Positions 4,571-31,256 of a DNA stretch of 64,000 nt are shown piece after piece. Every line of letters starts with the position of its first letter. Within the stretch, counting starts at the first letter, position 1. The translations under genes and the position numbers were made by a program. Where the stretch lies: positions 558,001 through 622,000 of the forward strand of contig NZ_QVNU01000003.1 in assembly GCF_003545715.1 (NCBI RefSeq), written 5' to 3'. The notes below the pieces were generated by a model, which was given only the letters and a program-made list of their open reading frames with translations, was not told where the DNA came from and ran no database searches. This DNA is from Taibaiella koreensis (GTDB lineage: Bacteria; Bacteroidota; Bacteroidia; Chitinophagales; Chitinophagaceae).

Positions 4571-5974
4571 ATGATCGTAGAACAACTATATACTAATTGT
4601 CTCAGCGAGGCCGCCTATTTCATCGCCGATGATGGCGAAGCGGCAGTGGTAGACCCTTTACGTGATATCGAGGCCTATGTCGACCTCGCAGCAAAGCACA
4701 ACGCGAAGATCAAATATATTTTCGAGACCCATTTTCATGCCGATTTTGTGAGCGGCCACCTGGATCTGGCCAGGGCCACCGGGGCAACGATCGTGTATGG
4801 TCCGCAAACCAATGCTGCTTTCAAATTTCACTTGGCTACAGATGGTGAAATATTCAGCGTGGGCAACCTCAGGCTGAAAGCACTGCATACACCGGGACAT
4901 ACCCTCGAAAGTACCTGCTACCTGCTGTTTGATGAGGAAGGCCGCGAGCACTGTGTGTTTACAGGCGATACCTTATTTGTGGGGGACGTAGGCCGCCCCG
5001 ACCTGTTCAGCGGCAACCTGAGCAAGGAGCAGCTGGCTTCAATGCTGTACGATTCGCTGAACAACAAGATCAGGACCTTACCCGACCATGTGATCGTATA
5101 CCCGGCGCACGGTCCCGGTTCGGCCTGTGGCAAAAACCTGGGTAAGGAGACCTTCAGCACAATAGCTACGCAAAAAGCAACGAACTATGCCCTGAAAGAG
5201 CAGAGCCGCGAAGACTTTGTTACTGAAGTAACCTCGGGGCTCAATACACCACCGGCCTATTTCCCCATCAATGCGCAGCTCAATGCGCAGGGCTACGAAA
5301 GCCTGGATAAAGTGAGGGCGGGGGCGCTGCAGGCGCTGAGCGTGGAAGCGTTTGAAGAGAAAGCAAAAGCCGGCGCCTGGATACTGGACAGTCGCCCTTC
5401 TTCCCTGTTTACAGAAGGCTTTGTGCCCGAATCCATCAGTATCGGTCTCGACGGACGCTTTGCCGAATGGGCAGGAAGCCTGCTGCCATTCGATAAGGAA
5501 CTGGTGCTGGTAACCGAAGCGGGCAAAGAAGAGGAAACCGTGATCCGGCTGGCCCGGGTTGGTCTCGATAAGATAGCCGGATACCTCGACGGCGGCTTTG
5601 ATGCCTGGCAGCAAGCCGGTAAAACAATCGACCTTATTATAGACGTAGAGCCCGAAGAACTGGCGATGGATATCCCTTTCGACAACAAGCTTCAGGTGAT
5701 AGATGTACGTAAGCCTTCTGAATTTGAAAGCGGGCATGTAAAAGGCGCCGAAAATATTCCGCTCAGCGAGCTGGGCAATCCCCTGCATATGGCGCAGATC
5801 GATGATGATGCCAATCTCTACGTACACTGCGCGGGTGGCTACCGTAGCGTGATCGCCTGTTCGCTCATGAAACGCGAAGGCTTTCACAATCTGCGTAATG
5901 TGCTGGGCGGCTTTGGCAAGATGAAAGAAGTGAAAGGAATGCCCGTGGTGAAGCCCTCGGCCGCGGGAGCCTGA
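4571..5974 (+). CDS. Metallo-beta-lactamase fold hydrolase with two rhodanese domains (persulfide dioxygenase-like)
   Basis: This 467-residue fusion has three parts. Residues 1-250 form an ETHE1-type metallo-beta-lactamase domain with the metal motif THFHADFVSGH, then HTPGHTLEST, FTGDTLFVGDVGRPDL and YPAHGPGSACG. Such enzymes oxidise glutathione or other low-molecular-weight persulfides to sulfite. Residues about 265-355 are a rhodanese domain without the active cysteine (VTEAGKEE where the loop should be), so it is probably structural. Residues about 370-455 are a second rhodanese with an intact catalytic Cys in YVHCAGGYRSV. It probably couples persulfide transfer and oxidation in sulfide detoxification. 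In this organism the thiol might be bacillithiol, given the bshB1-like gene at 54641-55372 (inference). It is a single-gene unit ended by a strong terminator. Confidence 0.92.
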   Translation: MIVEQLYTNCLSEAAYFIADDGEAAVVDPLRDIEAYVDLAAKHNAKIKYIFETHFHADFVSGHLDLARATGATIVYGPQTNAAFKFHLATDGEIFSVGNLRLKALHTPGHTLESTCYLLFDEEGREHCVFTGDTLFVGDVGRPDLFSGNLSKEQLASMLYDSLNNKIRTLPDHVIVYPAHGPGSACGKNLGKETFSTIATQKATNYALKEQSREDFVTEVTSGLNTPPAYFPINAQLNAQGYESLDKVRAGALQALSVEAFEEKAKAGAWILDSRPSSLFTEGFVPESISIGLDGRFAEWAGSLLPFDKELVLVTEAGKEEETVIRLARVGLDKIAGYLDGGFDAWQQAGKTIDLIIDVEPEELAMDIPFDNKLQVIDVRKPSEFESGHVKGAENIPLSELGNPLHMAQIDDDANLYVHCAGGYRSVIACSLMKREGFHNLRNVLGGFGKMKEVKGMPVVKPSAAGA

Positions 5975-5997
5975 TCCCTGCTCAATCAAATGAATTT

Positions 5998-6026
5998 GCC
6001 GCTCTCTGCAGGAGCGGCTTTTTTTT
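5998..6026 (+). terminator. Rho-independent terminator after the MBL-rhodanese gene
   Basis: A perfect 7-bp stem (GCCGCTC at 5998-6004 with GAGCGGC at 6012-6018) is followed by eight T. It lies 23 bases past the stop. Confidence 0.9.
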
Positions 6027-6068
6027 GCCCTGGCAGCCATCATAGTTGCCCACCCGGATTAACAGCAG

Positions 6069-6118
6069 GCTAACTGCAAGAAGCCCGGAGCACGCAGCGA
6101 CGGGCTTTTGCAGTTAGC
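6069..6118. repeat. Long inverted repeat between convergent genes
   Basis: GCTAACTGC (6069-6077) pairs with GCAGTTAGC (6110-6118), and the inner AGCCCG/CGGGCT extends the stem with one bulge. It sits ten bases past the stop of the minus-strand hydrolase gene and after the plus-strand terminator. It may stop transcription on the minus strand, but no T run follows. Confidence 0.55.
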
Positions 6119-6127
6119 ATACCAGCA

Positions 6128-7378
6128 TTACAAATGATCGTCCAGCCAGTTGAAGATACGGGTATAGGATATAGATAAAGCACCCGGCTGACAATGAAGA
6201 AAGCCGGTATCCTCCTCGGTGAACAGGATAAAATCCTTGGGACAACGAAGCGCATCATAAAGCTTCCTGGCCTGGCCTGCCGAGTATTCCTCGCCCATGC
6301 CATCAATCACCAGCATACGGCATTTAATCTGTCTTACCTTATCCTCTATCGTATACTCCTGGAGCATTTGCATCATCTCCGAGGGTGTGCGGGCGCCGTG
6401 CTTCCACATAGTATCGGCGATACCCCAGCGGAAGAAAGCATTCGTCTCCATGTAGGCGGCCATTTCCTTGTCGAATCGCTCATATGCACCATCGTGAAAG
6501 AGCTGCATCAGCTCTGGGTTCAACTGGTTGAGGAAGGTATACACACCATCTACCCAGCTGAGCACACCGGGATTAGCGATGCATAGTTTAATGCGTTTCT
6601 CGGCCGTCGCGGCCCGCGGCGCCAGGAAGCCGCCCATGCTGAAGCCGGTAAGGGCGATCCGTTCTTTGTCCACGCTCCTGTCTTTGATCACAAAGTCCAC
6701 CACAGGGCCTACTACCTTTTCCCAATCATAGCGGAAGGGGAGGTTTTGTAATCGTAGCAGCTTGCCCTGTCCCGGGCCGTCGAACAGCAGGCAATGGTAT
6801 CCCCGGAGGGTGGCCTGCTGCGCGATCCATAAATAATCCTCGGCCCAGGAATCCCTTCCCGAATGGAAAATCAGCACCGGGTTCTTTTTACGACCCTTCA
6901 CCTGCGATTTGAACCAGTATCCCGGAATGTGGGTACGCTCATAAGGGATCTCGACCGCCTCCACCGGGATATCCAGGTATTGCATGGCATCTTTGAAGTT
7001 TTTGATCTCTTTAAGTGTCAGTTGCTTTACTTCTGGGGCAGTGGGGTCGGGGTGGTGGTGAAGCGCTGCCCGGTAATAGGTAGCCGCCCTCAGGTACGAC
7101 TCACCGGCGGTAAGCCGATGATGCTTTTGAAGGCAGGAATGGCCCAGGGCATTCAGCCGGTCGCCGGTTTTGACCCATTCTTCGGCCCAGCTGCCCTCCC
7201 TGCTTTCATCGATACGGCTGGCAGTATCGAAGCATTCTCCAATGTCGGACAGGCGTTGCCAGGCACTGCCCAGGTAGAAAAGAAAAACACTTTCCAGCAC
7301 CGGGTTCTCAAAAATGCCAAGGGGATACCAGGATTGCTGTTGTTCCCTGTTCCCGCTCTCTTTTTTTATCTTTCTCAT
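6128..7378 (-). CDS. Alpha/beta hydrolase (dihydroxypseudooxynicotine-hydrolase/DUF1100-like)
   Basis: A 416-residue cytoplasmic hydrolase. Residues 1-130 are a helical cap, followed by the hydrolase fold: oxyanion region PVLIFHSGRDSW, nucleophile elbow GFSMGG (Ser), acid residue in LVIDGMGEEY (Asp), and a candidate catalytic His in DTGFLHCQPG. The helical N-terminal domain ahead of the fold resembles the C-C bond hydrolases of the 2,6-dihydroxypseudooxynicotine hydrolase group and the FrsA/DUF1100 proteins. The substrate cannot be deduced. No signal peptide is visible. It is convergent with the MBL-rhodanese gene and stands alone on its strand. Confidence 0.8.
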   Translation of the reverse strand: MRKIKKESGNREQQQSWYPLGIFENPVLESVFLFYLGSAWQRLSDIGECFDTASRIDESREGSWAEEWVKTGDRLNALGHSCLQKHHRLTAGESYLRAATYYRAALHHHPDPTAPEVKQLTLKEIKNFKDAMQYLDIPVEAVEIPYERTHIPGYWFKSQVKGRKKNPVLIFHSGRDSWAEDYLWIAQQATLRGYHCLLFDGPGQGKLLRLQNLPFRYDWEKVVGPVVDFVIKDRSVDKERIALTGFSMGGFLAPRAATAEKRIKLCIANPGVLSWVDGVYTFLNQLNPELMQLFHDGAYERFDKEMAAYMETNAFFRWGIADTMWKHGARTPSEMMQMLQEYTIEDKVRQIKCRMLVIDGMGEEYSAGQARKLYDALRCPKDFILFTEEDTGFLHCQPGALSISYTRIFNWLDDHL

Positions 7379-16082: not shown

Positions 16083-16111
16083 GCAACCGCCGCCGGTACG
16101 GCGCCGGTTGC
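16083..16111. repeat. GC-rich hairpin before the SAM hydroxide adenosyltransferase gene
   Basis: GCAACCG (16083-16089) pairs with CGGTTGC (16105-16111), with a further GCCG/CGGC pairing inside. It lies 20 bases before the downstream ATG and 21 bases after the adaptor gene stop. It could be a terminator remnant or a translation-control hairpin; no T run is present. Confidence 0.45.
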
Positions 16112-16131
16112 CATCTCATTGCTATCTTCAG

Positions 16132-16914
16132 ATGATCATAACCCTTTTGTCAGATTTTGGATACCAGGATAATTTTGTAGGCGTAGCGAAAGGTGTTTTA
16201 CTACAACGTTTACCGGTGGCACGGCTGATCGATCTCAATCACGAAGTAGAGCCGTTTCACCTGCTGCAGTGCAGCTACCTGCTGAAGAGCGCCTACGCCA
16301 ATTTCCCGGCCCGCACCGTGCATTTATCCCTCTTCGATATTATGCACCGGAACCCGGCATCGCTCCTCGTGACGGAAATCGACAACCAGTATATCGTCAG
16401 CGCCGACAACGGGCTGCTGCCGCTTACCTTCAATGCCCGGCTGGGCAAGGTACATGTGCACGACCGTATCGTGGGCTCCTACCTGGAATGGCTGACCCTC
16501 GCCGCCGACTTTATTGCAGGGCTGGAACAAAATGATTTTAATATAGCCGGCCTCAGTACCGTGACGCCCAAAGTACATCCGGCACGGCTGCAGGCTGTGG
16601 TAAAAGATAATTCAATAGAGTGCCAGGTGATCCATATCGATCGCTACGAAAATGTGGTCATTAACCTTACCCGCGATGAGTTTGAGGCCCAGCGTCGCGG
16701 TCGAAAGTTCCGTATCCAGATCATAAGGGACATTCTTACCCATATCAGCAACGACTATTCCGATGTGCCGGTAAGTGAAAAGCTATGCCTTTTCAACAGC
16801 GCCGGGTATATGGAGATCGCGATCAACCAGGGTAAAGCCTCCTCGCTGCTGGGACTGCGCCTGCATAACGAACGCCAGCTGATTTACCAGAATATAAAGA
16901 TTGAGTTTCTATGA
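16132..16914 (+). CDS. S-adenosyl-L-methionine hydroxide adenosyltransferase (DUF62)
   Basis: A 260-residue protein of the fluorinase/chlorinase superfamily. Its usual members hydrolyse SAM to adenosine and methionine. The start MIITLLSDFGYQDNFVG and the segments IDLNHEVEPFHLLQCSYLLKS and YIVSADNGLLPL are family hallmarks (the conserved Asp of LLSDFG, the SADNG loop). The C-terminal domain holds ECQVIHIDRYENVVINL, typical of the hydroxide-adding branch and not the fluorinase. The ATG at 16132 fits the family; a TTG at 16108 would add eight unlikely residues. It overlaps the next gene by four bases (ATGA), so the two are translationally coupled. Its physiological role is unknown. Confidence 0.9.
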   Translation: MIITLLSDFGYQDNFVGVAKGVLLQRLPVARLIDLNHEVEPFHLLQCSYLLKSAYANFPARTVHLSLFDIMHRNPASLLVTEIDNQYIVSADNGLLPLTFNARLGKVHVHDRIVGSYLEWLTLAADFIAGLEQNDFNIAGLSTVTPKVHPARLQAVVKDNSIECQVIHIDRYENVVINLTRDEFEAQRRGRKFRIQIIRDILTHISNDYSDVPVSEKLCLFNSAGYMEIAINQGKASSLLGLRLHNERQLIYQNIKIEFL

Positions 16915-17207
16915 TCGTCCGTATTGTAAAAATGACCTTCCGGCCAGAGGCTGTTCCCGCCTTTCTGGCGCTTTTTGAGGAGCGAAAAGAGCAGATCCGG
17001 CATTTTGAAGGTTGCCGGCACCTGGAGCTATGGCAGGAGGCCGGTAGCGAGACCGTGTTTTTTACCTATAGTCACTGGACCAATGAAGCCGCGTTGGACC
17101 ACTACCGCTTTTCTGCCTTTTTTAAAGATACCTGGGGCCATACCCGTGCACTATTTGCAGACAAAGCGCAGGCCTGGAGCCTAACGCAACGCCATATTCT
17201 CCCCTGA
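16911..17207 (+). CDS. Antibiotic biosynthesis monooxygenase (ABM)-like small protein
   Basis: A 98-residue ferredoxin-like fold protein. It starts MIVRIVKMTFRPEAVPAFLALFEERKEQI and contains FEGCRHLELWQEAGS and YSHWTNEAALDHYRFSAFFKDTW, the pattern of the dimeric ABM/YgiN group. Members include cofactor-free quinol monooxygenases and haem-degrading enzymes; the reaction here is not known. The start overlaps the stop of the SAM hydroxide adenosyltransferase (ATGA at 16911-16914), so the pair is an operon and may work on the same product, although nothing in the residues proves it. Confidence 0.85.
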   Translation: MIVRIVKMTFRPEAVPAFLALFEERKEQIRHFEGCRHLELWQEAGSETVFFTYSHWTNEAALDHYRFSAFFKDTWGHTRALFADKAQAWSLTQRHILP

Positions 17208-17261
17208 ACGGCGCTATTACCAAAACGTTAAATACGCGTAGGGCTTTTAATCGAGATTGGT

Positions 17262-17269
17262 TATATTTG
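17262..17269 (+). promoter_or_regulatory. Candidate -7 element (TATATTTG) for the first secreted-protein module
   Basis: TATATTTG fits the Bacteroidota TAnnTTTG -7 box. No clear TTTG is found 19 bases upstream. It would give a leader of about 125 bases before the ATG at 17400; that leader contains a GC-rich hairpin (GCAGCC at 17349-17354 with GGCTGC at 17359-17364). Confidence 0.35.
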
Positions 17270-17399
17270 CGAATCAAAGGATTTTTTTAAACACTTACCC
17301 AGCCTTTTGGGTTGAGAAAGGGTCTATGAGAATGTCCTGTTACCAACCGCAGCCCTGCGGCTGCTATTGTTGTATTTACTATAGAATCAAGCTTTTAAT

Positions 17400-17798
17400 A
17401 TGAAAAAAGTGCTGTTTGTACTGCTATCTGCGCTCAGCTATGGCAGTTATGCCCAGACCACTGCTGCTCCGGATCTGGTTAAAGCAAAAGCTTACGCCGA
17501 CGAGGTTTTTGCCAATTGCACCATCTTCGCAGGACCTTCCTACATCCCTGACTATGCGGAGATTATCAGCCGGATATCGGTTATCACCGAGCCGCAGGCC
17601 GCTCAGGAGAGCTATTCCAGGCTTTCTACGGTAATGCTCAAGAATAAGTGCAACCCGCAAATGACCCGGGACGAAAGCAACTTTAGTCCTTCCCATTTCA
17701 ATCCACTGAAATATTTTCTCAATTATTATCCCAAAGTGGACACCAAATACAGGGTTGATAACAGCAATTATGTGATCCTGGTACATCCCAAACCATAA
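17400..17798 (+). CDS. Small exported protein of unknown function (module copy 1)
   Basis: A 132-residue protein with a clear signal peptide (MKKVLFVLLSALSYGSYAQ, cleavage near residue 19). I do not recognise a domain. Its C-terminal 32 residues (NPLKYFLNYYP, YRVDNSNYVILV) align with the end of the protein at 20346-20747, with about 16 identities: NPLKY, a later Tyr, Asp, YR, Asp, YV, Val, Lys and Pro. Both genes stand directly in front of a large T9SS type B protein, here after 54 bases, so the pair is probably co-transcribed. It has two cysteines (NCT, NKCN) that could form a disulfide. A role as partner, chaperone or surface companion of the large protein is inferred only from this repeated arrangement. 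Confidence 0.8.
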   Translation: MKKVLFVLLSALSYGSYAQTTAAPDLVKAKAYADEVFANCTIFAGPSYIPDYAEIISRISVITEPQAAQESYSRLSTVMLKNKCNPQMTRDESNFSPSHFNPLKYFLNYYPKVDTKYRVDNSNYVILVHPKP

Positions 17799-17852
17799 GG
17801 CGCCCTGATTTGTAGCATAAATCTTTTTTATTGTCGTTTTAATTTTCTTTAG

Positions 17853-20207
17853 ATGACTTCCAATAAATTACACAAGCTTACCGGCAAAATTTGCAGCAGC
17901 CTGCTCTTTATGTTGCTTTTTCTGTCGATAGGAACAAAAACCTGGGCGCAGCCTACCGTCCTTTCTCCCTGTGATGCTAACCCGTTTTGCAGCGACAGCA
18001 GCTATACCTTCCCCAATTCCAGCGGTAACGTTTTTGCCGCGCCTCCTGCTCCGCCGGTCAATTACGGTACGGTGCTGCTATCTCAGCCCAATCCGGTATG
18101 GTATTGGATGCAGATAGGCACTTCGGGCACGATACAGCTTACGATCAATCAGACTAATGGCGGTGGTGGCGGAATAGATGTGGACTTTGCCATGTGGGGA
18201 CCTTTTACCGACCTGGCCACAGGCTGTGCGGCGATTATGGCCGGAGCCGCCCCCATACAAGCCAGCTACGATGGTGGTGGCGTAACCGAGGTAGCCGGTT
18301 TGGGCCTTCCGGGCGGCAGCCAGGTAGGCCAGGGGCTTCCACCCTTTCCTCCGGGTGGTACCACACCGCCGGCTGCAGTAGCTGGCGAGGTGTATATCCT
18401 TATCCTGACCAACTATTCCAATCAGCCGGGCACCATCGCCTTCAGCCAGACCGCCGGCACCGGCTCGGCCGACTGCGGTATCGTGTGTGGCCTCAGCGCC
18501 AGCAATAACGGACCTAAATGTTTTGGCGACCCGATCCAGCTTACAGCTGCCAATAGCGATACGACTACCTCATTTACTTACTATTGGACGGGACCCAACG
18601 GCTTCGCTGCCAGCGGGCGGAATGTAACGTTCCATCCTACCACGCCAGGCAACTTCACCTTCAATGTAACTGCCGTATCAGACGAGGACGATACCTGTAA
18701 GGCCAGCACCGATGTGGTTGTTCATCCTTTACCCAATGTTACGCTAACCAATCCCAACGACAGGATACTCTGTAATATCGACAGCGCGACGCTGGCGCTC
18801 AACAGCCCTTCCAATACCGTCCATTATCAGTGGTTCAAAGACGGTGTGGCGCTACCCAACGATACCAATGCGGTGCTGGTGGTACGAACAAACGGCACTT
18901 ACCTGGTAACGGCAGTATCGGCCGAAGGTTGCAGGGATACTTCCGAAGATGTGTTCGTCAAGCTTAACTTTACCGACGTTAATTTCAACTTTACCATCAT
19001 GAAGGGCTGTACGGAAGACAGCGTTCAGTTCAACAATCTGAGCGAGCCCGGTAGCTATTGGTGGAGCTACGGCGACGGCACCATGCCTGAAGATACCCTG
19101 ACCAATCCGCTGCACATCTATCAGGACCAGGACAACTATCTTGTTCGCCTGAAAATAAAGGATCTGGACGGTTGTGTAGATTCGGCGCTTAAGTTTGTAG
19201 ATGTAAGACATCCGCTGATCGCCGCGTTTACGGCCAGCACCGATTCCGTATGCCAATCCAACGGTACGCCGGTGGCCTTTACCGACGGCTCTACAGGCGC
19301 AACTGGCTGGAGCTGGGATTTTGGCGATGGCGCTGCTGCAACACAGCAAAACCCCAGCCATACTTATACGCAAGCCGGGACCCATAGCATAAGGCTGATC
19401 ATAAACGATAACCTTCCCTGCTACGATACGGCCTATCACCAGGTCTATGTTGACTCTTTACCCTTCCTGGAATTTGTTACCGATAAGCATAGCATATGCG
19501 TGGGTGACCGCGTTACCTTCACGCCCTCCTTCCTGTACACGGCCAAACAGCTGAGCTGGGATTTCGGCGACGGTATGCATTGGACTGAGAACGGTGTTAC
19601 CAGCCATAGCTTCGATCAGCCTGGTACCTATTGGGTGAAGCTGCTGGCTACTTTCCCGGTATGTGCCGAGATTATGAAGACCGACTCCGTAGTGGTGCAC
19701 GCCCTGCCACTGGTCAATCTGGGCCCGGACAGCGTATTGTGCCTGGATGGCCCCGCGATAAGGGTAGGGGATAATACCAACGCCAGCGATCCTACCATTC
19801 ACTGGTTGTGGAGTACAGGCGACACTACTGCTTTTATCAATATCGTGCATCCCGGCGAGTATGCCGTAACGGCCAGCCGCGGCGATTGTGGCACTACCGA
19901 AAGGATCATGGTGAACAAAGATTGCTATACCGATATCCCCAATGCCTTCACCCCCAACGGCGATGGAAGCAACGACTATTTCTATCCGCGCCAGCTGCTG
20001 AGCAAAGGCGTCGTTTCCTTCTCCATGACCGTGCTGAATCGGTGGGGACAGAAAGTATTTGAAACCACCAATACCAACGGTAGAGGATGGGATGGTAAGT
20101 TCAATGAAAAGGATCAACCCATGGGCGTGTACATCTACCAGATTAGAGCAGTGCTGAAGAACGGCCGTGTGGAAGAATACAGCGGTAATATAACATTGGT
20201 AAGATAA
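17853..20207 (+). CDS. PKD-rich surface protein with gliding-motility type B T9SS domain (module copy 1)
   Basis: A 784-residue exported protein. A signal sequence ends near TKTWAQ (about residue 32). The head (about 33-210) is a Gly/Pro-rich beta domain with GGGGGIDVDFAMWGPF, of a kind often seen in front of PKD repeats. Then come Ig/PKD-like repeats (about 210-690) with WSYGDG, WSWDFGDG and LSWDFGDG motifs. The last about 90 residues are the type B sorting domain: DIPNAFTPNGDGSNDYF, FNRWGQKVFET-like (here LNRWGQKVFETT), GWDGKFNEK, GVYIYQIRA. Residues from about 377 to the end closely match residues about 501-910 of the protein at 20791-23523, while the heads are unrelated. A terminator follows the stop. 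It is probably an adhesin or part of a surface fibre. Confidence 0.92.
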   Translation: MTSNKLHKLTGKICSSLLFMLLFLSIGTKTWAQPTVLSPCDANPFCSDSSYTFPNSSGNVFAAPPAPPVNYGTVLLSQPNPVWYWMQIGTSGTIQLTINQTNGGGGGIDVDFAMWGPFTDLATGCAAIMAGAAPIQASYDGGGVTEVAGLGLPGGSQVGQGLPPFPPGGTTPPAAVAGEVYILILTNYSNQPGTIAFSQTAGTGSADCGIVCGLSASNNGPKCFGDPIQLTAANSDTTTSFTYYWTGPNGFAASGRNVTFHPTTPGNFTFNVTAVSDEDDTCKASTDVVVHPLPNVTLTNPNDRILCNIDSATLALNSPSNTVHYQWFKDGVALPNDTNAVLVVRTNGTYLVTAVSAEGCRDTSEDVFVKLNFTDVNFNFTIMKGCTEDSVQFNNLSEPGSYWWSYGDGTMPEDTLTNPLHIYQDQDNYLVRLKIKDLDGCVDSALKFVDVRHPLIAAFTASTDSVCQSNGTPVAFTDGSTGATGWSWDFGDGAAATQQNPSHTYTQAGTHSIRLIINDNLPCYDTAYHQVYVDSLPFLEFVTDKHSICVGDRVTFTPSFLYTAKQLSWDFGDGMHWTENGVTSHSFDQPGTYWVKLLATFPVCAEIMKTDSVVVHALPLVNLGPDSVLCLDGPAIRVGDNTNASDPTIHWLWSTGDTTAFINIVHPGEYAVTASRGDCGTTERIMVNKDCYTDIPNAFTPNGDGSNDYFYPRQLLSKGVVSFSMTVLNRWGQKVFETTNTNGRGWDGKFNEKDQPMGVYIYQIRAVLKNGRVEEYSGNITLVR

Positions 20208-20250
20208 TTTGTAGTATTACGGCTACATAGTGCAGCTGAAATAAGACCAA

Positions 20251-20288
20251 AGTCTCTCGGGTTCAATAGCCTGAGGGACTTTTTTTTG
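20251..20288 (+). terminator. Rho-independent terminator closing module copy 1
   Basis: An 11-bp stem with two G-T pairs (AGTCTCTCGGG at 20251-20261 with CCTGAGGGACT at 20270-20280) is followed by eight T. Confidence 0.85.
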
Positions 20289-20345
20289 CCCTTGACCCAA
20301 CTAAAGAAAAGTTAACAAAGGTCTTCCTTCATATATATAATTGTT

Positions 20346-20747
20346 ATGTCCAGATTGTCCCGAATTGTTGTACTGCTTGCAGCAGTATTACTGCTGTTCC
20401 CGACCCTGAAAGGTAATGCGCTGCCGGAAGGTACCGATCGCCGTATTACCGAAGTATATGGTAGCTATACGGCGCGGCTGAGTTCGGCACAGCTGGCCGA
20501 CCTGAATGGCCGCCTGCTTCGTTGCACCGTGAAGCAAATGCCGCTGCAGAAAGGAGAGTCGTTTCCTTTACTCTCCAAACAGCCCCTGGTGACCAAGTTT
20601 GTACCAGACCTCAGGGCCGATAGCTTCAGCGAGCCCACGAAGATCAATCCGCTTAAGTATGATCTGCCGTTTTATACCCGTAAAGACCTTATCTACCGGA
20701 TCGATGGGACAGATTATGTGCTTTTTGTCATTGCAAAGGCGCCCTGA
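20346..20747 (+). CDS. Small exported protein of unknown function (module copy 2)
   Basis: A 133-residue protein with an N-terminal hydrophobic export signal (about residues 5-24, IVVLLAAVLLLFPTLKGNA). No known domain. The final third (INPLKYDLPFYTR, YRIDGTDYVLFV) is related to the end of the protein at 17400-17798, while the N-terminal halves are hardly alignable. It has only one cysteine after the signal, so the two-cysteine pattern of copy 1 is not kept. The large type B T9SS protein begins 43 bases downstream. The same order, size and spacing as copy 1 mark a duplicated two-gene unit. Confidence 0.8.
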   Translation: MSRLSRIVVLLAAVLLLFPTLKGNALPEGTDRRITEVYGSYTARLSSAQLADLNGRLLRCTVKQMPLQKGESFPLLSKQPLVTKFVPDLRADSFSEPTKINPLKYDLPFYTRKDLIYRIDGTDYVLFVIAKAP

Positions 20748-20790
20748 TCCCTAGCTGATCCCTATTTGCCAATAACCAATATCACCGCTT

Positions 20791-23523
20791 ATGTTTCTTC
20801 GAATATTTACCCGCTATACCCTTTTCTGCCTGTTGTTCGTGCTGTTTTGCAGCGCCTGGAGTGTGAGCGAGGCGCAACCGCCCTGTCAAACGATCATAGC
20901 CCGGGTCAACAGCACATCGCCGCCGTCGGACCCTGCCGATTCCATTGTTAAGGTATGTAAGGGCACTACCGTTACGTTTACCGGTTCGGCCACTTTCAGC
21001 ACCTCTGCTACCGGCGCTACTTATGAGTGGCGCTTCAACGACGGCACCATTATGCCGGGTACTACGATAAGCCGCAATTTTCCCGACGAGGGTGTATACG
21101 TAGTTGATTTTGTAGCTACCGATGCCAGCGGCTGTGTCAATAAGAACTGCGACAGCCGTAAGATCATCCAGGTATCGACCACGCCTCATTTCAACCAGAT
21201 CCAGAAGCCGGATACTATGTGCCTTCACCATACGGCAACCATACTGGGTATTGTAACTCCGGTGGAAGGAAAATACGATTGCGCGCCGCCGGTATCCGGC
21301 ACCACTTTCCTGCCCGATGGACAGGGTACCCCCTACACAACCAGCATTAACGTAAGCTGCTTTACCCCCTGTGATACTGTGGCTGCTCCCGGCGACATCG
21401 AAAGTATTTGCCTCAATATGGAGCACTCTTATATGGGCGACCTGGATATCGATATCACCTGTCCCAACGGGCAAACCCTATCTCTGCTCAACTCTAACGG
21501 CGGCGGCATTATCCTGGGCCAGCCTGTGGCTACCGACCTGCCGGTGGACGCAAGCAATTTGCTGGATCCGGGTATCGGATTCAACTATTGCTTTTCCCCC
21601 ATGTCGACCAGCGGATTTATCCATGATATTGCCAACACTACCAATGTGTCGCCTTATACAGACCCTCTGGGCAATGTGAGCACAGATAATCCCATCAACC
21701 AGGCCAATCCCGGTACCTACCAGGCCGATGGCAACTGGAATAACCTTGTCGGCTGCCCGATGAATGGCAGCTGGACGATAACGGTAAATGACAACCTGCC
21801 TGCCGATAACGGCTATATCTTCAATTGGGGCATTACCTTCAGCAAGGGGATCGGCGCTTATAATTTTATTCCCGTTTACCCGCAGCAGCATTGGGATGCC
21901 AATGCCGATATCATTGGTACCAGCGCCGGCGGAAAAAACATTACCATCAAGCCGGAAACAGGAGAGGGGTTGCACTGCTACACCTTCAGGGTGGTCGACA
22001 GCTTCAATTGCCCTTACGATACTACGGTATGTGTATACGTGATCGATCCCGGCAATCCCGGCAGGGACACCACGCTAAAGATATGCCTGGGACAGGATCC
22101 GGTCAACGCATTCAGCTACCTGGGCAACAATGTAACACCCGGCGGCACCTGGTCGGGCCCGGGAGTAAGCCCTGCAGGTATGTTTGACCCGGCCGCCGCT
22201 GGTCTGGGACTGCGTCCCGTAGTGTATCGCCTGCATAAATGGAACTGCGACACGATCGCCACCATTACCTTCAATGTCATTAATGATGTCCAGATGGATT
22301 TCAACTTTCAGTTGCTTCCCGGCTGTACTGAGGATACGGTACGGTTTACCAACCTGAGCGAGCCCGGCAGGTACTGGTGGCGCTTTGGCGACGGCAGCCT
22401 ACCCGAAGACACGACCGTGCACCCGGTACATATTTACCAGGACCAGAGCAATTATCAGGTAAGGCTTACAGTAAAAGACCTCGATGGCTGCATCGACTCT
22501 GTGTTGAAGATCGTCGATATCAGGCATCCGCTGAAGGCTTCTTTCGACCTCAGTATCGATTCGGTATGCCAGGCCAACGGTACGCCTGTTGTCTTCAATG
22601 ATGGCTCTATAGGCGCGGCCAACTGGAGCTGGGACTTCAACGATGGCACTACTGCTACCGTGCAGAATCCGACCCATACTTTTAGCCTGGCGGGAACCCG
22701 CAGGGTACGCCTGATCATCAACGATAAGATACCTTGCTACGATACCCTTTACCGGAATGTCTATGTAGACTCCCTTCCTTTCCTGGACCTGGTAACGGAT
22801 AAGCACAGCATCTGTACCGGCGATCGCGTCAGCTTTACACCTGCCTTCCTGTACACCGTGAAGAGCCTCAGCTGGGACTTTGGCGACGGCACGCACTGGC
22901 AGGAGAATGGCGCGACCGGGCACAGCTTTGACCAGGCGGGGACTTACCACATTACGCTACGGGCAGACTACCCCGTTTGCGAAGACCTGATGAAGACCGA
23001 TTCCGTTGTGGTCAATGTGATGCCCCTGGTCTACCTTGGACCGGATAGCGTACTGTGCCTGGATGGCCCGGCCGTGAGGGTAGGCGATGCCAACAATGCC
23101 AATGACCCCACAGTGCGTTGGTTGTGGAGCACCGGCGCCAAAACGCCCTATATCGATATTGTGCATCCGGGTGAATATGCGGTCACCGCTACCCGCGGCG
23201 ATTGCGGAACAACAGAGAAGGTTGTGGTGAGCAAAGATTGCTACACCGATATTCCCAATGCCTTTACGCCTAACGGCGACGGCAGCAATGATTATTTCTA
23301 TCCCCGCCAGCTCATTAGTAAGGGTGTCGTATCCTTCTCCATGACCGTATTCAACCGTTGGGGACAAAAGGTCTTTGAGACGACCAATGTTAATGGCAGG
23401 GGCTGGGATGGCCGGTTTAACGACAAGGAGCAACCTATGGGTGTTTACATTTACCAGATCAGGGCGGTATTGAAAAATGGCCGCGCCGAAGATTATAGCG
23501 GTAATGTAACGCTGGTAAGATAA
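20791..23523 (+). CDS. PKD and P-domain surface protein with gliding-motility type B T9SS domain (module copy 2)
   Basis: A 910-residue exported protein with a signal peptide (about 1-29). Residues about 45-125 are a PKD domain (YEWRFNDG). Residues about 160-355 resemble a proprotein convertase P domain (HSYMGDLDIDITCPNGQ, then NGSWTITVNDNLPADNG, WGITF), a beta-sandwich often attached to secreted enzymes and adhesins. Residues about 365-500 are Ig-like. Residues about 501-910 are PKD repeats plus the type B T9SS sorting domain (DIPNAFTPNGDGSNDYF, FNRWGQKVFETT, GVYIYQIRAVLKNG) shared with the protein at 17853-20207. Synonymous positions differ widely although the protein is well conserved, so the duplication is not recent. 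A terminator follows. Function is probably adhesive; no catalytic domain was seen. Confidence 0.92.
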   Translation: MFLRIFTRYTLFCLLFVLFCSAWSVSEAQPPCQTIIARVNSTSPPSDPADSIVKVCKGTTVTFTGSATFSTSATGATYEWRFNDGTIMPGTTISRNFPDEGVYVVDFVATDASGCVNKNCDSRKIIQVSTTPHFNQIQKPDTMCLHHTATILGIVTPVEGKYDCAPPVSGTTFLPDGQGTPYTTSINVSCFTPCDTVAAPGDIESICLNMEHSYMGDLDIDITCPNGQTLSLLNSNGGGIILGQPVATDLPVDASNLLDPGIGFNYCFSPMSTSGFIHDIANTTNVSPYTDPLGNVSTDNPINQANPGTYQADGNWNNLVGCPMNGSWTITVNDNLPADNGYIFNWGITFSKGIGAYNFIPVYPQQHWDANADIIGTSAGGKNITIKPETGEGLHCYTFRVVDSFNCPYDTTVCVYVIDPGNPGRDTTLKICLGQDPVNAFSYLGNNVTPGGTWSGPGVSPAGMFDPAAAGLGLRPVVYRLHKWNCDTIATITFNVINDVQMDFNFQLLPGCTEDTVRFTNLSEPGRYWWRFGDGSLPEDTTVHPVHIYQDQSNYQVRLTVKDLDGCIDSVLKIVDIRHPLKASFDLSIDSVCQANGTPVVFNDGSIGAANWSWDFNDGTTATVQNPTHTFSLAGTRRVRLIINDKIPCYDTLYRNVYVDSLPFLDLVTDKHSICTGDRVSFTPAFLYTVKSLSWDFGDGTHWQENGATGHSFDQAGTYHITLRADYPVCEDLMKTDSVVVNVMPLVYLGPDSVLCLDGPAVRVGDANNANDPTVRWLWSTGAKTPYIDIVHPGEYAVTATRGDCGTTEKVVVSKDCYTDIPNAFTPNGDGSNDYFYPRQLISKGVVSFSMTVFNRWGQKVFETTNVNGRGWDGRFNDKEQPMGVYIYQIRAVLKNGRAEDYSGNVTLVR

Positions 23524-23549
23524 ACAATCAGCCAATAGAACATGAAGCG

Positions 23550-23579
23550 CCCGCCGGTTGTTCCGGCGGGTTTCTTTTT
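23550..23579 (+). terminator. Rho-independent terminator closing module copy 2
   Basis: A perfect 8-bp GC stem (CCCGCCGG at 23550-23557 with CCGGCGGG at 23563-23570) is followed by TTTCTTTTT. Confidence 0.9.
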
Positions 23580-23605
23580 GGCGCTGGGGTAGCAGCAGAA
23601 AAGAT

Positions 23606-24739
23606 TCAGGGAGAGAGGAGGGCCACACATTCCTTTGCGGCGGCAGCGCCCAATGCCACACCCATGCCACCCATGCGGAAAGCCCCATAGACATGGGGAC
23701 TAAACTGTTGAATAAGGGGGCGTTTGGCTGTGCCAAAAGCCATAATGCCCGCCCAGCGTTGTGCAATGGCAACTTTGCTGCCTGGCAGGATCAGCTCGCG
23801 CAACTTTGTCTCCAGGTCGGCCTGTATTGCGGGGTTCAGGGCAATCTCGGTAGTCGTTTCCCCTTCAAAATCAAGGTTACGGCCGCCACCGAACAGCACA
23901 CGGCCATCGATCTCGCGAAAATAATAGTAACCTTCGTCAAAGTGGAAAATGCCCTTGAACGGCAGACCCGGTATAGGGTCGGTGAGCAGCACCTGGCCCC
24001 TGCCGGGCTGGAGCGCTGCTTCGGGCAGAAGGGTTCGCGTAAACGCATTGGTACAAATAAAAAGGTGCCGGGCATGCAGCGCTATAGTTGCAGCCCGTGT
24101 GGTGTCGGCCACCAGTACTGATACGCCTTCGTCCTCTTCTTCAAACCGCTCCACCGGCGCGCCGGTCTTGATCTCTATCCCCATTTCAAGTGCGTAGTCG
24201 GTGAGCCGGCGCATCATTTTACCGGTATGCAGTTCGCCTTCACCTGTATTTTCAATAAGCGCCGCTACCGCTGACGCAGGAAAACCGAAGCCCACTATTT
24301 TTCCATCGGCACGGCGAAAGGGCTCAAAGCCGGCAGCGGCAGCAATAAGCGCATTGATATGGTCCAGTTGCGCCAGCAAGGGCAATTCCCCGGGACTGAT
24401 GAGCTCGTGGCTGCCGTTTTCACGATAGTCGATCGCATGATCGCCCAGCCGTTGCCGCAACAAGGCCAGGCCCTCTTTTCTACGACAAAAAAGAGCTGTC
24501 ATCTCGACCTCGCTATGGTGCTTCAGATCGTCGAGCAGCTCGGTAAAGCTGCCCATACAAGCAAAGCCGGCATTACGCGTGCTGGCGCCATAGGGGAAAA
24601 GGCTGCGCTCGAGCACGAGCACCCGCTTGGCCGGAAAGCGTTCCTTGTATTCGATCGCCGTATGCAGGCCGACAATGCCGGCGCCAATAACGATGGCATC
24701 ATAATGCAGGAACGACGCCTGCTCCCAGTAGCTAAACAT
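23606..24739 (-). CDS. FAD-dependent oxidoreductase (DAO family)
   Basis: A 377-residue flavoprotein. The dinucleotide-binding motif is GAGIVG in YDAIVIGAGIVGLHTAIEY (about residues 13-31). The N-terminal FAD region continues with VLVLERSLFPYGASTRNAGFA, typical of glycine/D-amino-acid oxidase relatives. QVLLTDPIPGLPFKGIFHFDEGYYYFREIDGRVLFGGGR and the C-terminal GAFRMGGMGVALGAAAA complete the family pattern. It probably oxidises an amine or D-amino acid. The MFS transporter gene lies 18 bases upstream on the same strand, so the pair may import and oxidise one compound. The substrate is unknown. Confidence 0.9.
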   Translation of the reverse strand: MFSYWEQASFLHYDAIVIGAGIVGLHTAIEYKERFPAKRVLVLERSLFPYGASTRNAGFACMGSFTELLDDLKHHSEVEMTALFCRRKEGLALLRQRLGDHAIDYRENGSHELISPGELPLLAQLDHINALIAAAAGFEPFRRADGKIVGFGFPASAVAALIENTGEGELHTGKMMRRLTDYALEMGIEIKTGAPVERFEEEDEGVSVLVADTTRAATIALHARHLFICTNAFTRTLLPEAALQPGRGQVLLTDPIPGLPFKGIFHFDEGYYYFREIDGRVLFGGGRNLDFEGETTTEIALNPAIQADLETKLRELILPGSKVAIAQRWAGIMAFGTAKRPLIQQFSPHVYGAFRMGGMGVALGAAAAKECVALLSP

Positions 24740-27781: not shown

Positions 27782-27947
27782 AGAAAAATTCTATACAAAG
27801 TTCCCGCCAAAATTTTCCTTTTGATTTCAGCATTAAAACGCAATTAATCTACAGAATTTGAGTGTAGGGCCACATGAAGTTTATATGATATGCGTGATGG
27901 TTCACTTGAATGTGTTATTTTTGTATTTTAACTTAAACTATTGCCGC

Positions 27948-30900
27948 ATGAAAACGAGTACAACCATTTTAATGTTCCTGCTGTTGCTCTTGCATTATGG
28001 CGCACAAGGTAAAGACGGCGAACAACCCAACAAGCTAACTTATTTCAAAGAAAATAAGGGGCAACTGATTGATCAGAACGGCGCTGCAAGGGGCGATATT
28101 TTTTACTATGGCGCCAGCGACGGGCTGCAATACTATTTTAAAAAATCGGGGATCAGCTACCAATTGTATCAGCGGGATGAGGAGAAGAATATCCATCTTT
28201 CCCGTGTTGATGTTTCCTGGCTCGGAGCCAATACACAGGCAGAACTCATCGGTCAGAATAAAGCAGGAGCTGTAGAAAATTTTATCCGTGACGGGCGTAG
28301 TATATTCGGTGCACGGCAGTATAATGATCTTTTGTATAGGAATCTTTATAAGGATATCGATCTGCACTACTATTATCAGGGCGCATCATTGAAATATGAT
28401 TTTATTGTCGCGCCGCATGCAGATTATAGACATATCAGGCTCGAAATGGAAGGCGCCAGTGCGCTCCGGCTCAATAAAGACGGCACGCTTACCATTGTTA
28501 CAGCAAATGGTTCCGTTACAGAGGGTGTACCTGTTGCTTACCAAAACAAGAAGCCCGTTCCTGTTTCCTGGATAATGAAAGACAATGTGTTGGGTTTTCA
28601 GGTAGGCAACTACGACCCATCACAGCCGTTGATCATTGATCCGTTGATCTACAGGTGGTATTCAAGTACCCTGACTTCCGGATCGAGCCTGACACAATCA
28701 GATGGTACAGCTTATGCCTCCGTGCACGATAATAACAACAACGTATACGTTATATCCAGTGCCGCGGACAAAAATGGCCCTATGTATGACTACTATGCAA
28801 GGATAACCAGCCGGAATAGCAGTACAGGAGCCGTTAATTGGACGCGCAATGTAGCTGATTTTTTTACTGGGAGCAACATTACCCCTTCTAATGCTTTCCC
28901 GGCTGAAGGCCTGGCACTAGGAATCAATTGCCTGTATCTATGTGGAAGTACCGGGTGTACTGCTGTAAACATCGCTACAAGTGGCGCTTACCAGACGACC
29001 ATTGTCGGGCAACAAGACTGCTTTCTGGCTAAATATGCGTTGAATGGAGACAGGATCTGGGTAACTTATTATGGAGGAGCGGGCGACGATTCGGCAAAAC
29101 GCTGTATTGCAGATGCTTACGGTAATATGTATATCTGTGGGACTACCTCCTCTACTGGTAGTATGGCCACGATCAACGCCTTCCAGCCGGCGCTGGCAGG
29201 TAGCAGTGACGCTTTTATAGCTAAATTCGACTCAGCAGGCAGGCGGGTGTGGAGTACCTATTATGGCGGCAGCGCCACGGATATGGCCCGAAGCATTGCT
29301 ATACAGGGCAGTCAGCTTTTTGTCGCCGGTACTACTACATCAGCAGGTATCGCAACAGTTGGATCACATCAGCAAGCGTTTGCAGGCAATCAGGACGGCT
29401 TCCTGCTTTGTCTTGACACTACAGGCAGCACGCGGCAATGGAGCACTTATTACGGTGCGGATTCTACCACGGCGGAAAATTGTGTCGTAGGTGGTAATGC
29501 CATTTATCTTTCAGGAACAACCAATAGCGCGAGTAGTATAGCTACGCCGGGGGTATACCAGGGAAACATAGCGGGAGGACGAGATGCCTATCTGGCAAAA
29601 TTTGATATGAGTGGTGTACGCCAATGGGGAACCTACCATGGCGGCACAGGAGATGAAACCGGCTCGGGTACTGTAATGGGCAGTAGCGGCAATCTTTATT
29701 TGTGTGGCACGACAACATCCGATACCGCTATAGCAACATTCATGAGCTATCAAACCAATTACAGTCCGATAGGCAGTGCTTCAACCTATCTTTCTGAATT
29801 CAATAGCAATGGTCAGAAATTGTCGGGAACCTATTTTAACGGAGCGGAAAGTGCAGTATACTGCTCTGCAAATAATAGTGGCGACGTCTTTATATCGGGT
29901 GGTTATTATATCGCATATCCTCTTCATCCCCCAGTGGTGCTGGGGTACCTGGCCAAGTTTTCTTACTGCAACGATACCACACCGGTGATCGACGCCCCCG
30001 AAACACATATCTGTTCCGGAACACCGGTTACCATTTCTGTGCCTGCTGTACCGAGTACTACCTATCAGTGGTATCGCAATGATACCCTGATTACCGGCGC
30101 TACCCAAAATATTTACACGGCTTCGCTTGCCGGCTTATACCGGATCTTAGTCAATGGTTGTCCTCCAAGCAGTATGGCTGCTGTATCCCTTACCCAATCG
30201 GTTACTCCCTTAGTTCAGGTCACCCATACTGATATTCCCTGCTATGCCAGCAATAGCGGTACCATTAATGTAGCAGCCACGAACGGCACACCGCCATATA
30301 CCTATCAATGGAATAATTTACCGGACACCACCGCTTTTGTTTCGGGTCTGGATACCGGTACCTATATTGTCCATACGCGTGATGTGTACAGTTGCGGGAA
30401 GATCGATACCGTGAAGATCACAAAACGTACGACTACTCCTCCTTCTAATCCGCTGGCCAGCCTCTGTGTCGTTACCACGGATTCCGCAACAGAAAAAAAT
30501 CTGGTAGTCTGGGAGAAGGTCGGCGATGTAAGGGCGGTCAGCTATAACGTTTATCGGGAAACAAGCGTTATGGCCCAGTATGAGCTCATAGGGACACGTA
30601 GTGTCGATAGCTTAAGCACTTTCCTTGATATTATCGCAAACCCCTTGCAGCAAAGCTATACCTATGCATTGGCCGAAGTCGATAGCTGTGGCAATGAATG
30701 GCCCTTGAGCGAACGTCATACCACCATACACCTGAGCGCCAATATGGGCGTCAATGGTGAAATCAACCTCAGCTGGAATACTTACGCCGGAAGAAGCTAT
30801 TCTACGCATTATATCGAAAGGAGTTTTAACGGCGGTCCATTTACTTTGCTGAACGAAGTTTCCAGCACGATGACGGCATACTCCGATCTGACGCCTCCCC

Positions 30901-31256
30901 TTGGCGACAAAGTATACCGGATCGCAATTGATGTGGCGCCGTCATGCGCTCCCTCAAAGCCTACAGATATTGCCCGGGTTACCTCCAATACGGTGTCGTT
31001 TATCACTTCGGGCATTGGTGAGCATGAGGTTGCGGGATTTGTTGAGCTCGGTCCCAATCCCACTACCGGGCTGTTGATGATACATAACTTCAAACCAGCG
31101 GTAATCAAAGTATACGACTTCGCAGGCCGGCAGGTGCTTTCCGAAAAGAATACCACCAGTATCAACCTGGGCGGTCTTTCTAAAGGGACCTACCTGGTAC
31201 GGCTGCTGGATAAAAACGCCAATGTGCAATACAGTAAAAAAGTGATCTTGAAATAA
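27948..31256 (+). CDS. Large secreted beta-propeller (SBBP-repeat) protein with type A T9SS sorting domain
   Basis: A 1102-residue exported protein when read from the ATG at 27948, which starts the signal peptide MKTSTTILMFLLLLLHYGAQG; a longer frame from 27858 has no export signal at its start. Residues about 30-240 match the N-terminal domain (DUF7948-like: FKENKGQLIDQNG, DIFYYGASDGLQYYF) often found before SBBP repeats. Residues about 260-690 hold repeats such as WVTYYGGAGDDSAKRC, WSTYYGGSATDMARS, WGTYHGGTGDETGSG and CGTTTS, forming a propeller. Ig-like and fibronectin-like regions follow, then a type A T9SS domain (LGPNPTTGLLMIHNF, GTYLVRLL). By eye its codons look more A+T rich than those of its neighbours. 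A possible -7 box (TATTTTTG) is at 27916-27923. Function is unknown, perhaps adhesion. Confidence 0.9.
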   Translation: MKTSTTILMFLLLLLHYGAQGKDGEQPNKLTYFKENKGQLIDQNGAARGDIFYYGASDGLQYYFKKSGISYQLYQRDEEKNIHLSRVDVSWLGANTQAELIGQNKAGAVENFIRDGRSIFGARQYNDLLYRNLYKDIDLHYYYQGASLKYDFIVAPHADYRHIRLEMEGASALRLNKDGTLTIVTANGSVTEGVPVAYQNKKPVPVSWIMKDNVLGFQVGNYDPSQPLIIDPLIYRWYSSTLTSGSSLTQSDGTAYASVHDNNNNVYVISSAADKNGPMYDYYARITSRNSSTGAVNWTRNVADFFTGSNITPSNAFPAEGLALGINCLYLCGSTGCTAVNIATSGAYQTTIVGQQDCFLAKYALNGDRIWVTYYGGAGDDSAKRCIADAYGNMYICGTTSSTGSMATINAFQPALAGSSDAFIAKFDSAGRRVWSTYYGGSATDMARSIAIQGSQLFVAGTTTSAGIATVGSHQQAFAGNQDGFLLCLDTTGSTRQWSTYYGADSTTAENCVVGGNAIYLSGTTNSASSIATPGVYQGNIAGGRDAYLAKFDMSGVRQWGTYHGGTGDETGSGTVMGSSGNLYLCGTTTSDTAIATFMSYQTNYSPIGSASTYLSEFNSNGQKLSGTYFNGAESAVYCSANNSGDVFISGGYYIAYPLHPPVVLGYLAKFSYCNDTTPVIDAPETHICSGTPVTISVPAVPSTTYQWYRNDTLITGATQNIYTASLAGLYRILVNGCPPSSMAAVSLTQSVTPLVQVTHTDIPCYASNSGTINVAATNGTPPYTYQWNNLPDTTAFVSGLDTGTYIVHTRDVYSCGKIDTVKITKRTTTPPSNPLASLCVVTTDSATEKNLVVWEKVGDVRAVSYNVYRETSVMAQYELIGTRSVDSLSTFLDIIANPLQQSYTYALAEVDSCGNEWPLSERHTTIHLSANMGVNGEINLSWNTYAGRSYSTHYIERSFNGGPFTLLNEVSSTMTAYSDLTPPLGDKVYRIAIDVAPSCAPSKPTDIARVTSNTVSFITSGIGEHEVAGFVELGPNPTTGLLMIHNFKPAVIKVYDFAGRQVLSEKNTTSINLGGLSKGTYLVRLLDKNANVQYSKKVILK

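Follow-up and report, generated by a model that had tools for sequence, protein, structure and literature searches.

Organization of the two modules

Within the window, that is, the whole 64,000-nucleotide stretch of Taibaiella koreensis DNA analysed, two gene pairs lie one behind the other at positions 17400-20207 and 20346-23523. Each consists of a gene for a small, putatively exported protein, a short spacer and a gene for a large protein with PKD domains and a type B T9SS tail, and both pairs are real, as the original prediction had it. The features assigned to them are as follows.

17262..17269, + strand: TATATTTG, a match to TAnnTTTG 5′ of module 1 (pattern scan)
17400..17798, + strand: small, putatively exported protein, A type (P0001), 132 aa, with the motif FNPLKY...YRVDNSNYVILV (ORF and homologues)
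17853..20207, + strand: large type B T9SS protein (P0003), 784 aa (ORF and Pfam/NCBIfam profiles)
20249..20282, + strand: terminator-like stem of 15 pairs followed by a T run, end of module 1 (stem scan)
20312..20341, + strand: sigma-70-like promoter match, TTAACA-18-TATAAT, 11/12, before module 2 (consensus match only)
20346..20747, + strand: small, putatively exported protein, B type (P0002), 133 aa, with the motif INPLKY...YRIDGTDYVLFV (ORF and homology)
20791..23523, + strand: large type B T9SS protein (P0004), 910 aa (ORF and Pfam/NCBIfam profiles)
23549..23571, + strand: terminator-like stem of 9 pairs (8 G-C) followed by a T run, end of module 2 (stem scan)

The spacers between the small and large genes measure 54 nt in module 1 and 43 nt in module 2. 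P0003 is composed, in order, of an N-terminal module (N-module) of the type "PFC...DVDFAMWGPF", PKD and Ig-like domains and a CHU_C tail, and P0004 of an N-module with PKD and proprotein-convertase P domains, more PKD domains and a CHU_C tail. Both contain four PKD stretches, match CHU_C (PF13585) and TIGR04131 ("T9SS type B sorting domain") above the curated cut-offs, and start with a hydrophobic stretch that looks like a signal peptide by eye. TATATTTG fits TAnnTTTG, the Bacteroidetes -7 box; a pattern scan found this box in neither of the small-large spacers nor in the 138 nt ahead of module 2. Sigma-70-like matches are as frequent as by chance (7 sites vs 7.4 expected by shuffling). Each module had also been said to be closed by a terminator: the two stems with T runs do lie at the expected positions and are long or G-C-rich, but the 8 terminator-like sites in 17000-24000 are not above chance (6.8 in shuffles, sd 2.6).

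A plain tandem duplication, as previously assumed, does not describe the two modules. The last 230 residues of P0003 and P0004 are 80% identical, whereas residues 26-230 are unrelated (24% identity, z 0.6 vs shuffles) and identity between the small proteins is 31%; the modules are therefore mosaics of conserved tails, unrelated N-modules and divergent small proteins. Against a contig of Taibaiella helva, the small genes have dN/dS values of 0.058 and 0.214 and the large genes values of 0.064 and 0.066, all of them rough because dS (1.2-1.5) is near saturation. The genes are thus under purifying selection and are not chance ORFs.

The small-protein family and its gene neighbourhood

BLASTP aligned P0001 and P0002 over 97 residues (33% identity, E 7e-13), well beyond the C-terminal motif to which their likeness had been thought to be confined; judged by this alignment, the two are true homologues. 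The family could not be named from the letters alone, and Pfam, NCBIfam and PDB still offer no credible relative: Pfam and NCBIfam gave matches to single members only among 40 searched (E 0.0026-0.0089, none credible), and the best hit of a PDB profile search (E 0.014) covers the signal-peptide part. No match was found by PADLOC for the three proteins scanned, by tblastn with P0001 in a phage collection, by tblastn with one family member (L104) in a plasmid collection, or in viral contigs searched with the f5 sub-alignment, and titles and abstract openings of the open-licence PMC literature yielded no description of the family. Hits in f17 and f24 were rejected as chance, as they lie in long frames and extend over no more than the first 63-86 of the 140 profile positions.

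The homologues show amino-acid conservation, starts that resemble signal peptides by eye, and about 110-140 residues thereafter. Neither P0001 nor P0002 matches Por_Secre_tail, CHU_C or TIGR04131 at E up to 1, and no T9SS sorting domain was found among the 40 members at E 0.01; PF11751 and TIGR03519 match neither the two window proteins nor the 40 members. By eye, P0001 and P0002 lack a lipobox, and the one lipobox-like match among 83 small proteins falls inside the hydrophobic stretch. The structure prediction that had been proposed for the small and large proteins was run with AlphaFold2, and the models were too poor to use (mean pLDDT 45.9 for the small protein from a 4-row alignment, and 36.8 from 5 rows for a read-through fusion of the small gene and N-module of module 1 with two stops bridged).

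A survey of gene neighbourhoods outside the window placed a large gene next downstream, on the same strand, at 85 of 86 family loci in three family-level groups of Bacteroidota, and the homologues are thus not mostly found away from type B genes. This tally is made up of 83 of 84 tabulated loci, a locus in G192 (L054) that was omitted from the table and has the same small protein as G031, and copy 2 of G435; the only member without a large neighbour is L169. It would become 85/88 if L171 (E 2e-4) and L172 (E 6.5e-5), excluded as false for want of the motif, were counted. Five f7 rows (L166-L170) fall short of E 1e-6, and the 79 rows stronger than this, together with G192, are all paired. Weak matches (E 0.002-0.01) occur in other genomes, of which G435 (real), L060, L061, L171 and L172 were followed; a limited number of first-look candidates was scored per genome (10 or 11 in the small-protein searches, 4 in the CUB-PKD-P search and 30 in the f17/f24 search), so that extra copies may be missed. 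The spacers have a median of 10 nt; 73 of 83 do not exceed 30 nt, and 7 are 4-nt overlaps. Downstream ORFs end at a contig or locus edge in 48 of 84 cases, four of them being shorter than 360 aa, and a type B tail is present in all 35 complete large proteins, according to a profile made here that has 10 of the 35 among its seeds. The majority of the 63 f5 loci appear to represent a single orthologous locus on the folE side and are therefore not independent trials; the pairing also holds at f1 and f7 loci, in tandem copies and in a proS-side copy in G101.

The small protein had been proposed as a dedicated partner of this kind of adhesin. The survey supports an association with one class of type B proteins, but not with type B proteins in general: the home genome, with its 64 CHU_C matches, contains just two of the small genes, the pair in the window, and a same-strand ORF of 90-210 aa within 150 nt upstream was found for 1 of the 22 other home-genome type B genes inspected. 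PorP/SprF, assumed to be the usual partner, does not have that place in the home genome either, where four PF11751 genes (open frames of 349-367 aa), all away from the small genes, stand against the 64 CHU_C matches.

The link is asymmetric, and the small gene is dispensable. At least 67 full-length CUB-PKD-P N-modules were found in 349 sampled genomes, in one family-level group, and among the matches listed the small gene is missing at 12 of the 67; two of the 12 have a different small exported protein, and six occupy the folE-side locus itself. Elsewhere in the home family, genomes of other genera contain four weaker PFC-type modules and no match to the small protein. The proposition that the small protein accompanies every CUB protein was rejected: none of 40 loci picked among the matches listed (12 full-length, 5 other partial and 23 with the CUB-PKD part only) gave a small-profile hit at E up to 1, with short upstream sequence in L183, L191 and L206 and a masked run in L185. 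The large ORF was wrongly picked in L179, L182, L203, L207, L208 and L212, and only the missing profile hit counts there.

Association with the N-module

Several comparisons suggest that the small gene goes with the N-module of the large protein rather than with its secretion tail, although the mirror-tree test is mixed. In two locus comparisons the tail is conserved while the small gene and N-module are replaced together. In G239 and G279, which represent the same genus and locus, the last 230 aa of the large proteins are 77% identical, whereas the N-modules show no relationship (24%, z 0.5) and the small proteins share 29%; G279 instead resembles the A pair of the window (small protein 47%, N-module 54%). 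At the proS-side locus of G101, the large protein carries the local tail (61% identity to the home-genome protein at this position, which lacks a small gene). Its N-module (53%) and the accompanying small gene (41%) are of the A type.

The clades of the small protein largely match the N-module type. On a tree of 85 small proteins, four N-classes require 4 changes (shuffled mean 12.8), and six A-type rows form one clade (support 100/99); the alignment has few columns, the bootstrap is unsettled, and the A-type row of G749 is a long branch outside that clade. In mirror-tree comparisons, the small protein correlates with CUB after controlling FolE (r 0.50, n=52), and as strongly with FolE as with CUB (0.60 vs 0.50). 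At 15 loci, r is 0.40 with CUB (p 0.016, controlling FolE and CTD) and -0.18 with the CTD (controlling FolE and CUB), whereas at 27 loci, with FolE not controlled, it is 0.47 with CUB (after CTD) and 0.46 with the CTD (after CUB). The CUB label is motif-based at most loci, Pfam detecting CUB in two and the P domain in six of the nine large proteins scanned.

A candidate partner of the N-module and its alternatives

The adjacency at 85 of 86 loci and the tendency to change with the N-module make it probable that the small protein acts as a dedicated partner for the large protein's front end. The N-modules served would be those of PFC, CUB-PKD-P or PKD-P type in one class of large type B T9SS proteins. 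The reading we lean towards, by a narrow balance of belief, is that a soluble, Sec-exported small protein without CTD or lipobox acts in the periplasm as a dedicated binder of the N-module, either as a chaperone or as a tip subunit. The small protein would be made just before the large one from a common message, and would meet and bind its N-module in the periplasm, most likely stabilizing this module or maintaining its competence until the T9SS translocon takes the CTD. Afterwards, it may stay behind, as a chaperone, or leave on the folded substrate, as a tip subunit. That it is carried through the T9SS without a CTD of its own, bound to the N-module, and becomes the distal tip subunit, with exchangeable pairs of N-module and tip protein, is a specific form of this idea that we consider unlikely.

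Among the alternatives, the one with most to commend it, still clearly a minority view, is that both proteins act in the same process, such as matrix building or cell contact, without binding each other, their genes forming a co-regulated operon that is inherited and exchanged as a block. Short spacers and common orientation account for joint transfer without binding, the small gene can be lost, and the AlphaFold2 models are too poor to give a contact; the match between small-protein clades and N-module types tells against it, as does the joint change of small gene and N-module with the tail kept in two locus comparisons, although one crossover within the large gene would suffice for this by linkage. 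A role as secretion adaptor of the type B tail, in place of an absent neighbouring PorP/SprF shuttle, is improbable for the small protein. The scarcity of PorP/SprF genes in the home genome and the equal correlation with CTD and CUB at 27 loci would fit such a role, as would the orphan type B substrates of F. johnsoniae described in the accessible text of PMC12618676, but according to the same text those orphans use a distant SprF-like shuttle, Fjoh_1677. Moreover, the small proteins lack PF11751 and TIGR03519 matches, are too small for a PorP/SprF barrel at their 110-140 residues past the signal peptide, are encoded upstream rather than downstream, and did not track the CTD in the locus comparisons.

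Two further explanations can be given very little credence. The position of the small ORF and the short or overlapping spacers would suit a leader that controls large-gene translation by coupling and whose product is unimportant, but the amino-acid conservation, the signal-peptide-like starts and the dN/dS values (0.058 and 0.214) speak against this, and a leader would have no need of N-module-specific protein types. Equally, the adjacency could lack any functional basis and go back to a single ancestral arrangement that chance, or essential genes nearby, have preserved; many f5 loci are indeed the same folE-side locus, yet pairs occur at other f1 and f7 loci, in tandem and on the proS side in G101, and a spacing of tens of nucleotides has been maintained over three family-level groups.

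In the accessible texts (PMC12618676, PMC12635249, PMC10994853, PMC9143113, PMC10202324), such partners of type B T9SS proteins as are described act on the C-terminal signal. With a partner family for the opposite end, substrate-specific handling would gain a second layer, and the question arises whether the T9SS needs, or exports, partners that lack a CTD. The small family also provides a way into the study of giant CUB-PKD-P surface proteins.

In chaperone-usher type fibres, a small exported partner is encoded beside the surface subunit, which offers an analogy of working only; profile searches matched the small proteins to no family of this kind. The sprC and sprD genes lie ahead of sprB and encode products larger than the small protein. 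As proposed for the small protein, SprC and SprD are operon partners of a giant adhesin, in this case in gliding, and are set beside the family by description only; sprC, sprD, sprB and sprF form one operon in Flavobacterium johnsoniae according to the title of a cited reference, and SprC is described as moving along the gliding track. PorP/SprF (PF11751, TIGR03519), like the small gene as read here, is encoded next to a type B substrate as its dedicated partner, but it works with the CTD, whereas the small protein appears to go with the N-module. SprF/PorP is described as a PorV-like outer-membrane barrel whose gene commonly lies directly downstream of the substrate gene; the small gene lies upstream, and its product is less than half the size and unrelated by profile. 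The accessible text of PMC10994853 presents SkpA/SprE and others as periplasmic T9SS factors; SkpA/SprE are general parts of the extended translocon that are not encoded with one substrate, and nothing in Pfam or NCBIfam matches the small family credibly. The pep25/lbp26 genes (PMC9950754) are, judging by the accessible description, another gene pair.

Two gene pairs and the small-protein family

On the reading proposed here, the small exported protein encoded ahead of each of two large PKD proteins with a type B T9SS tail is probably a substrate-specific accessory partner of that surface protein, with the unusual feature that it appears to follow the end opposite the secretion signal. The home assembly of Taibaiella koreensis (24 contigs, 5.94 Mb) carries two such pairs in the window:

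17400–17798, + strand, small gene of pair 1 (A type)
17853–20207, + strand, large gene of pair 1, after a 54-nt spacer; its N-terminal module (N-module) is of the A type (PFC...DVDFxMWGPF)
20346–20747, + strand, small gene of pair 2 (B type)
20791–23523, + strand, large gene of pair 2, after a 43-nt spacer; its N-module is PKD-P without CUB

Each pair is closed by a terminator-like stem, and a pattern scan for TAnnTTTG, the consensus of the Bacteroidetes -7 box, found a match at 17262, ahead of the first pair, and none inside either small–large spacer. Both large proteins contain PKD domains and exceed the curated cut-offs for CHU_C and TIGR04131. Elsewhere in the window, the gene at 16108–16914, two genes upstream of the first pair, may encode an (R)-S-adenosyl-L-methionine hydrolase, although its match falls below the cut-off. 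The large protein encoded at 27858–31256 has a type A T9SS tail that passes the cut-off and an SBBP-like beta-propeller match that does not.

The two small proteins are homologous: their alignment spans 97 residues, most of the mature protein, at 33% identity (E 7e-13). A Taibaiella helva contig encodes a small protein with 87% identity. Conservation in the family is strongest at F-N-P-x-x-Y (N-P-L-K-Y in most members), followed by Y-R-x-D-N/G-T-x-Y and a final hydrophobic strand-like stretch; the members from f7, another family-level group of Bacteroidota, depart from this motif. Cysteine is absent beyond residue 30 in 55 of 83 small proteins, and a lipobox-like string occurs in one of the 83. 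The small genes are under purifying selection, with dN/dS of 0.058 for the A type and 0.214 for the B type, although dS is close to saturation. Searches of Pfam and NCBIfam with 40 members gave no credible match (only single-member matches, E 0.0026 or weaker), as did a family profile search of the PDB, and no description of the family stood in the titles or abstract starts that searches of an open-licence library brought up.

Gene neighbourhood and distribution

At 83 of 84 loci outside the window, the next gene is a same-strand large ORF of the expected kind; with G192 and a second copy in G435 added, 85 of 86 small genes are paired, the exception being a divergent member of the family that has no large gene beside it (L169, 16429–16887, − strand; genome G1120). 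The spacer has a median of 10 nt, is at most 30 nt in 73 of 83 cases and is replaced by a 4-nt overlap in seven. The downstream ORF is incomplete at a contig or locus end for 48 loci; the 35 complete large proteins all have a type B tail according to a profile made for this analysis, 10 of whose seeds are among the 35, and Pfam CHU_C is present in all four relatives scanned to their end (L107, L016, L015 and L163). Of the nine relatives whose large proteins were scanned with Pfam, most have PKD, six have the proprotein-convertase P domain and two have CUB. As a control, 22 other type B genes of the home genome were inspected, and one is preceded within 150 nt by an ORF of 90–210 aa on the same strand. 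Several type B tandem pairs without small genes also occur there (e.g., G000:C10:936000-950000, C10:1036000-1050000 and C10:1494000-1508000).

In the home family, the Chitinophagaceae, 394 genomes were searched with a nine-row profile; 9 of them, all from two genera, hold the 14 strong loci, and five more genomes gave weak matches. The same profile gave strong matches in G000 (the home genome), G031, G612 and G749 among 395 genomes sampled across the phylum, together with four weak matches, of which that in G435 proved real. With a 16-row profile, 59 of the 349 genomes sampled from f5, the family of G612, yielded 63 strong loci, while 8 of the 114 from f7, the family of G435, yielded 10 loci. 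A 40-row profile matched 7 of 133 phylum genomes, three of which truly hold the family (G000, G031 and G435), and added one new locus, the second copy in G435. Judged by gene content, f5 is probably the Flavobacteriaceae. In f5, a conserved order (L104, L107, L128 and L156) places cysS-folE divergent from the small and giant genes, followed by OMPP1/FadL-type, lipoprotein-like and proS genes; type B genes adjoin proS in the home genus as well. Many contigs at L101–L161 stop inside the giant gene, a few kb past the small gene, probably at assembly breaks in repetitive adhesins.

The converse search covered the 349 f5 genomes with a 476-position CUB-PKD-P profile, at most four candidates being scored per genome. 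It found at least 67 full-length matches, with the small gene just upstream in 55 and absent in 12. The upstream gene was made out for 10 of these 12: six modules adjoin folE, the usual site of the pair, with 178–301 nt free upstream; two adjoin another conserved gene; and two, both in G1038, lie 2–3 nt downstream of a different small exported protein (FNLPP...DYSYKLN):

L183, 1492–1902, − strand, other small exported protein
L184, 2097–2483, + strand, other small exported protein

The L183 protein has no Pfam match, and its signal peptide is common to L131, a true family member of the same genome. Of 40 loci retrieved to examine this point, 23 matched the CUB-PKD part alone, and the small profile matched in none. 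The PFC module, searched in 107 home-family genomes, gave four strong matches, all with the small gene, and four weak matches, all in genomes without a small match. The small gene is thus nearly always found with the large gene, whereas the large gene can go without it, a pattern that marks an accessory partner and not a core component.

Correspondence with the N-module

Most relatives carry an N-module assigned by motif as CUB-PKD-P. Two start otherwise: at L122 the small gene is paired with a giant protein (2956–6255) in which Pfam places an M43 metallopeptidase domain before the PKD-P module, and L129 is likened to it from its start only. In a tree of 85 small proteins, built from few columns and with bootstrap still unsettled, the N-module labels need four changes, against a minimum of three and 12.8 when shuffled. 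One clade (100/99) holds six A-type rows from two genera, four PKD-P rows form a separate clade (100/96) and the CUB rows are scattered through the remainder; the seventh A-type row, from G749, is a long branch without a settled place.

Natural exchanges point the same way. Between G239 and G279 (one genus, one locus), the tails are 77% identical, the N-modules unrelated and the small proteins 29% identical, while G279 and the window A pair share 47% in the small protein, 54% in the N-module and 35% in the tail. At the proS-side locus, the home genome encodes a protein whose N-module is of another kind and which no small gene precedes; the G101 protein at this locus has a tail 61% identical to it, but its N-module is of the A type and an A-type small gene precedes it. 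The N-module displaced in this way, at 59% identity to the home-genome protein, recurs in G101, again without a small gene, on a protein with a different tail, 75% identical to that of G101's A-type protein. A single crossover within the large gene, taking the linked upstream gene along, can also produce such co-exchange, but linkage alone leaves unexplained that N-module type and small type are matched across two genera. Mirror-tree correlations agree in part with the small protein following the N-module: across 15 loci, with FolE and the other part controlled, r was 0.40 (p 0.016) for small versus CUB and −0.18 for small versus the C-terminal secretion signal region (CTD); across 27 loci, with the other part as sole control, 0.47 and 0.46; and 0.50 (n=52) for small versus CUB with FolE controlled, against 0.60 for small versus FolE with CUB controlled.

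Proposed role in secretion

According to PMC12618676, Sec brings T9SS substrates into the periplasm, where the CTD is recognised next, and SprF/PorP-type shuttles collect type B CTDs; in F. johnsoniae, 9 of 12 type B substrates have an adjacent sprF-like gene and three orphan substrates have one distant shuttle in common (PMC12618676). Whereas these shuttles act on the type B CTD, the small family appears to follow the N-module end. Lacking both a CTD and a lipobox, the small protein should remain in the periplasm unless its partner carries it out. Structure prediction with AlphaFold2, as proposed beforehand, gave no usable model in two runs (small protein alone, 4 rows, mean pLDDT 46; fusion with the N-module, 5 rows, 37). 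The best-supported proposal is that the small protein would bind the N-module of the large protein, acting either as its chaperone or as a tip subunit exported along with it. The home genome contains four PorP/SprF genes against 64 CHU_C matches, so its type B proteins are mostly orphan; one PorP/SprF gene lies within the window at 57107–58150.
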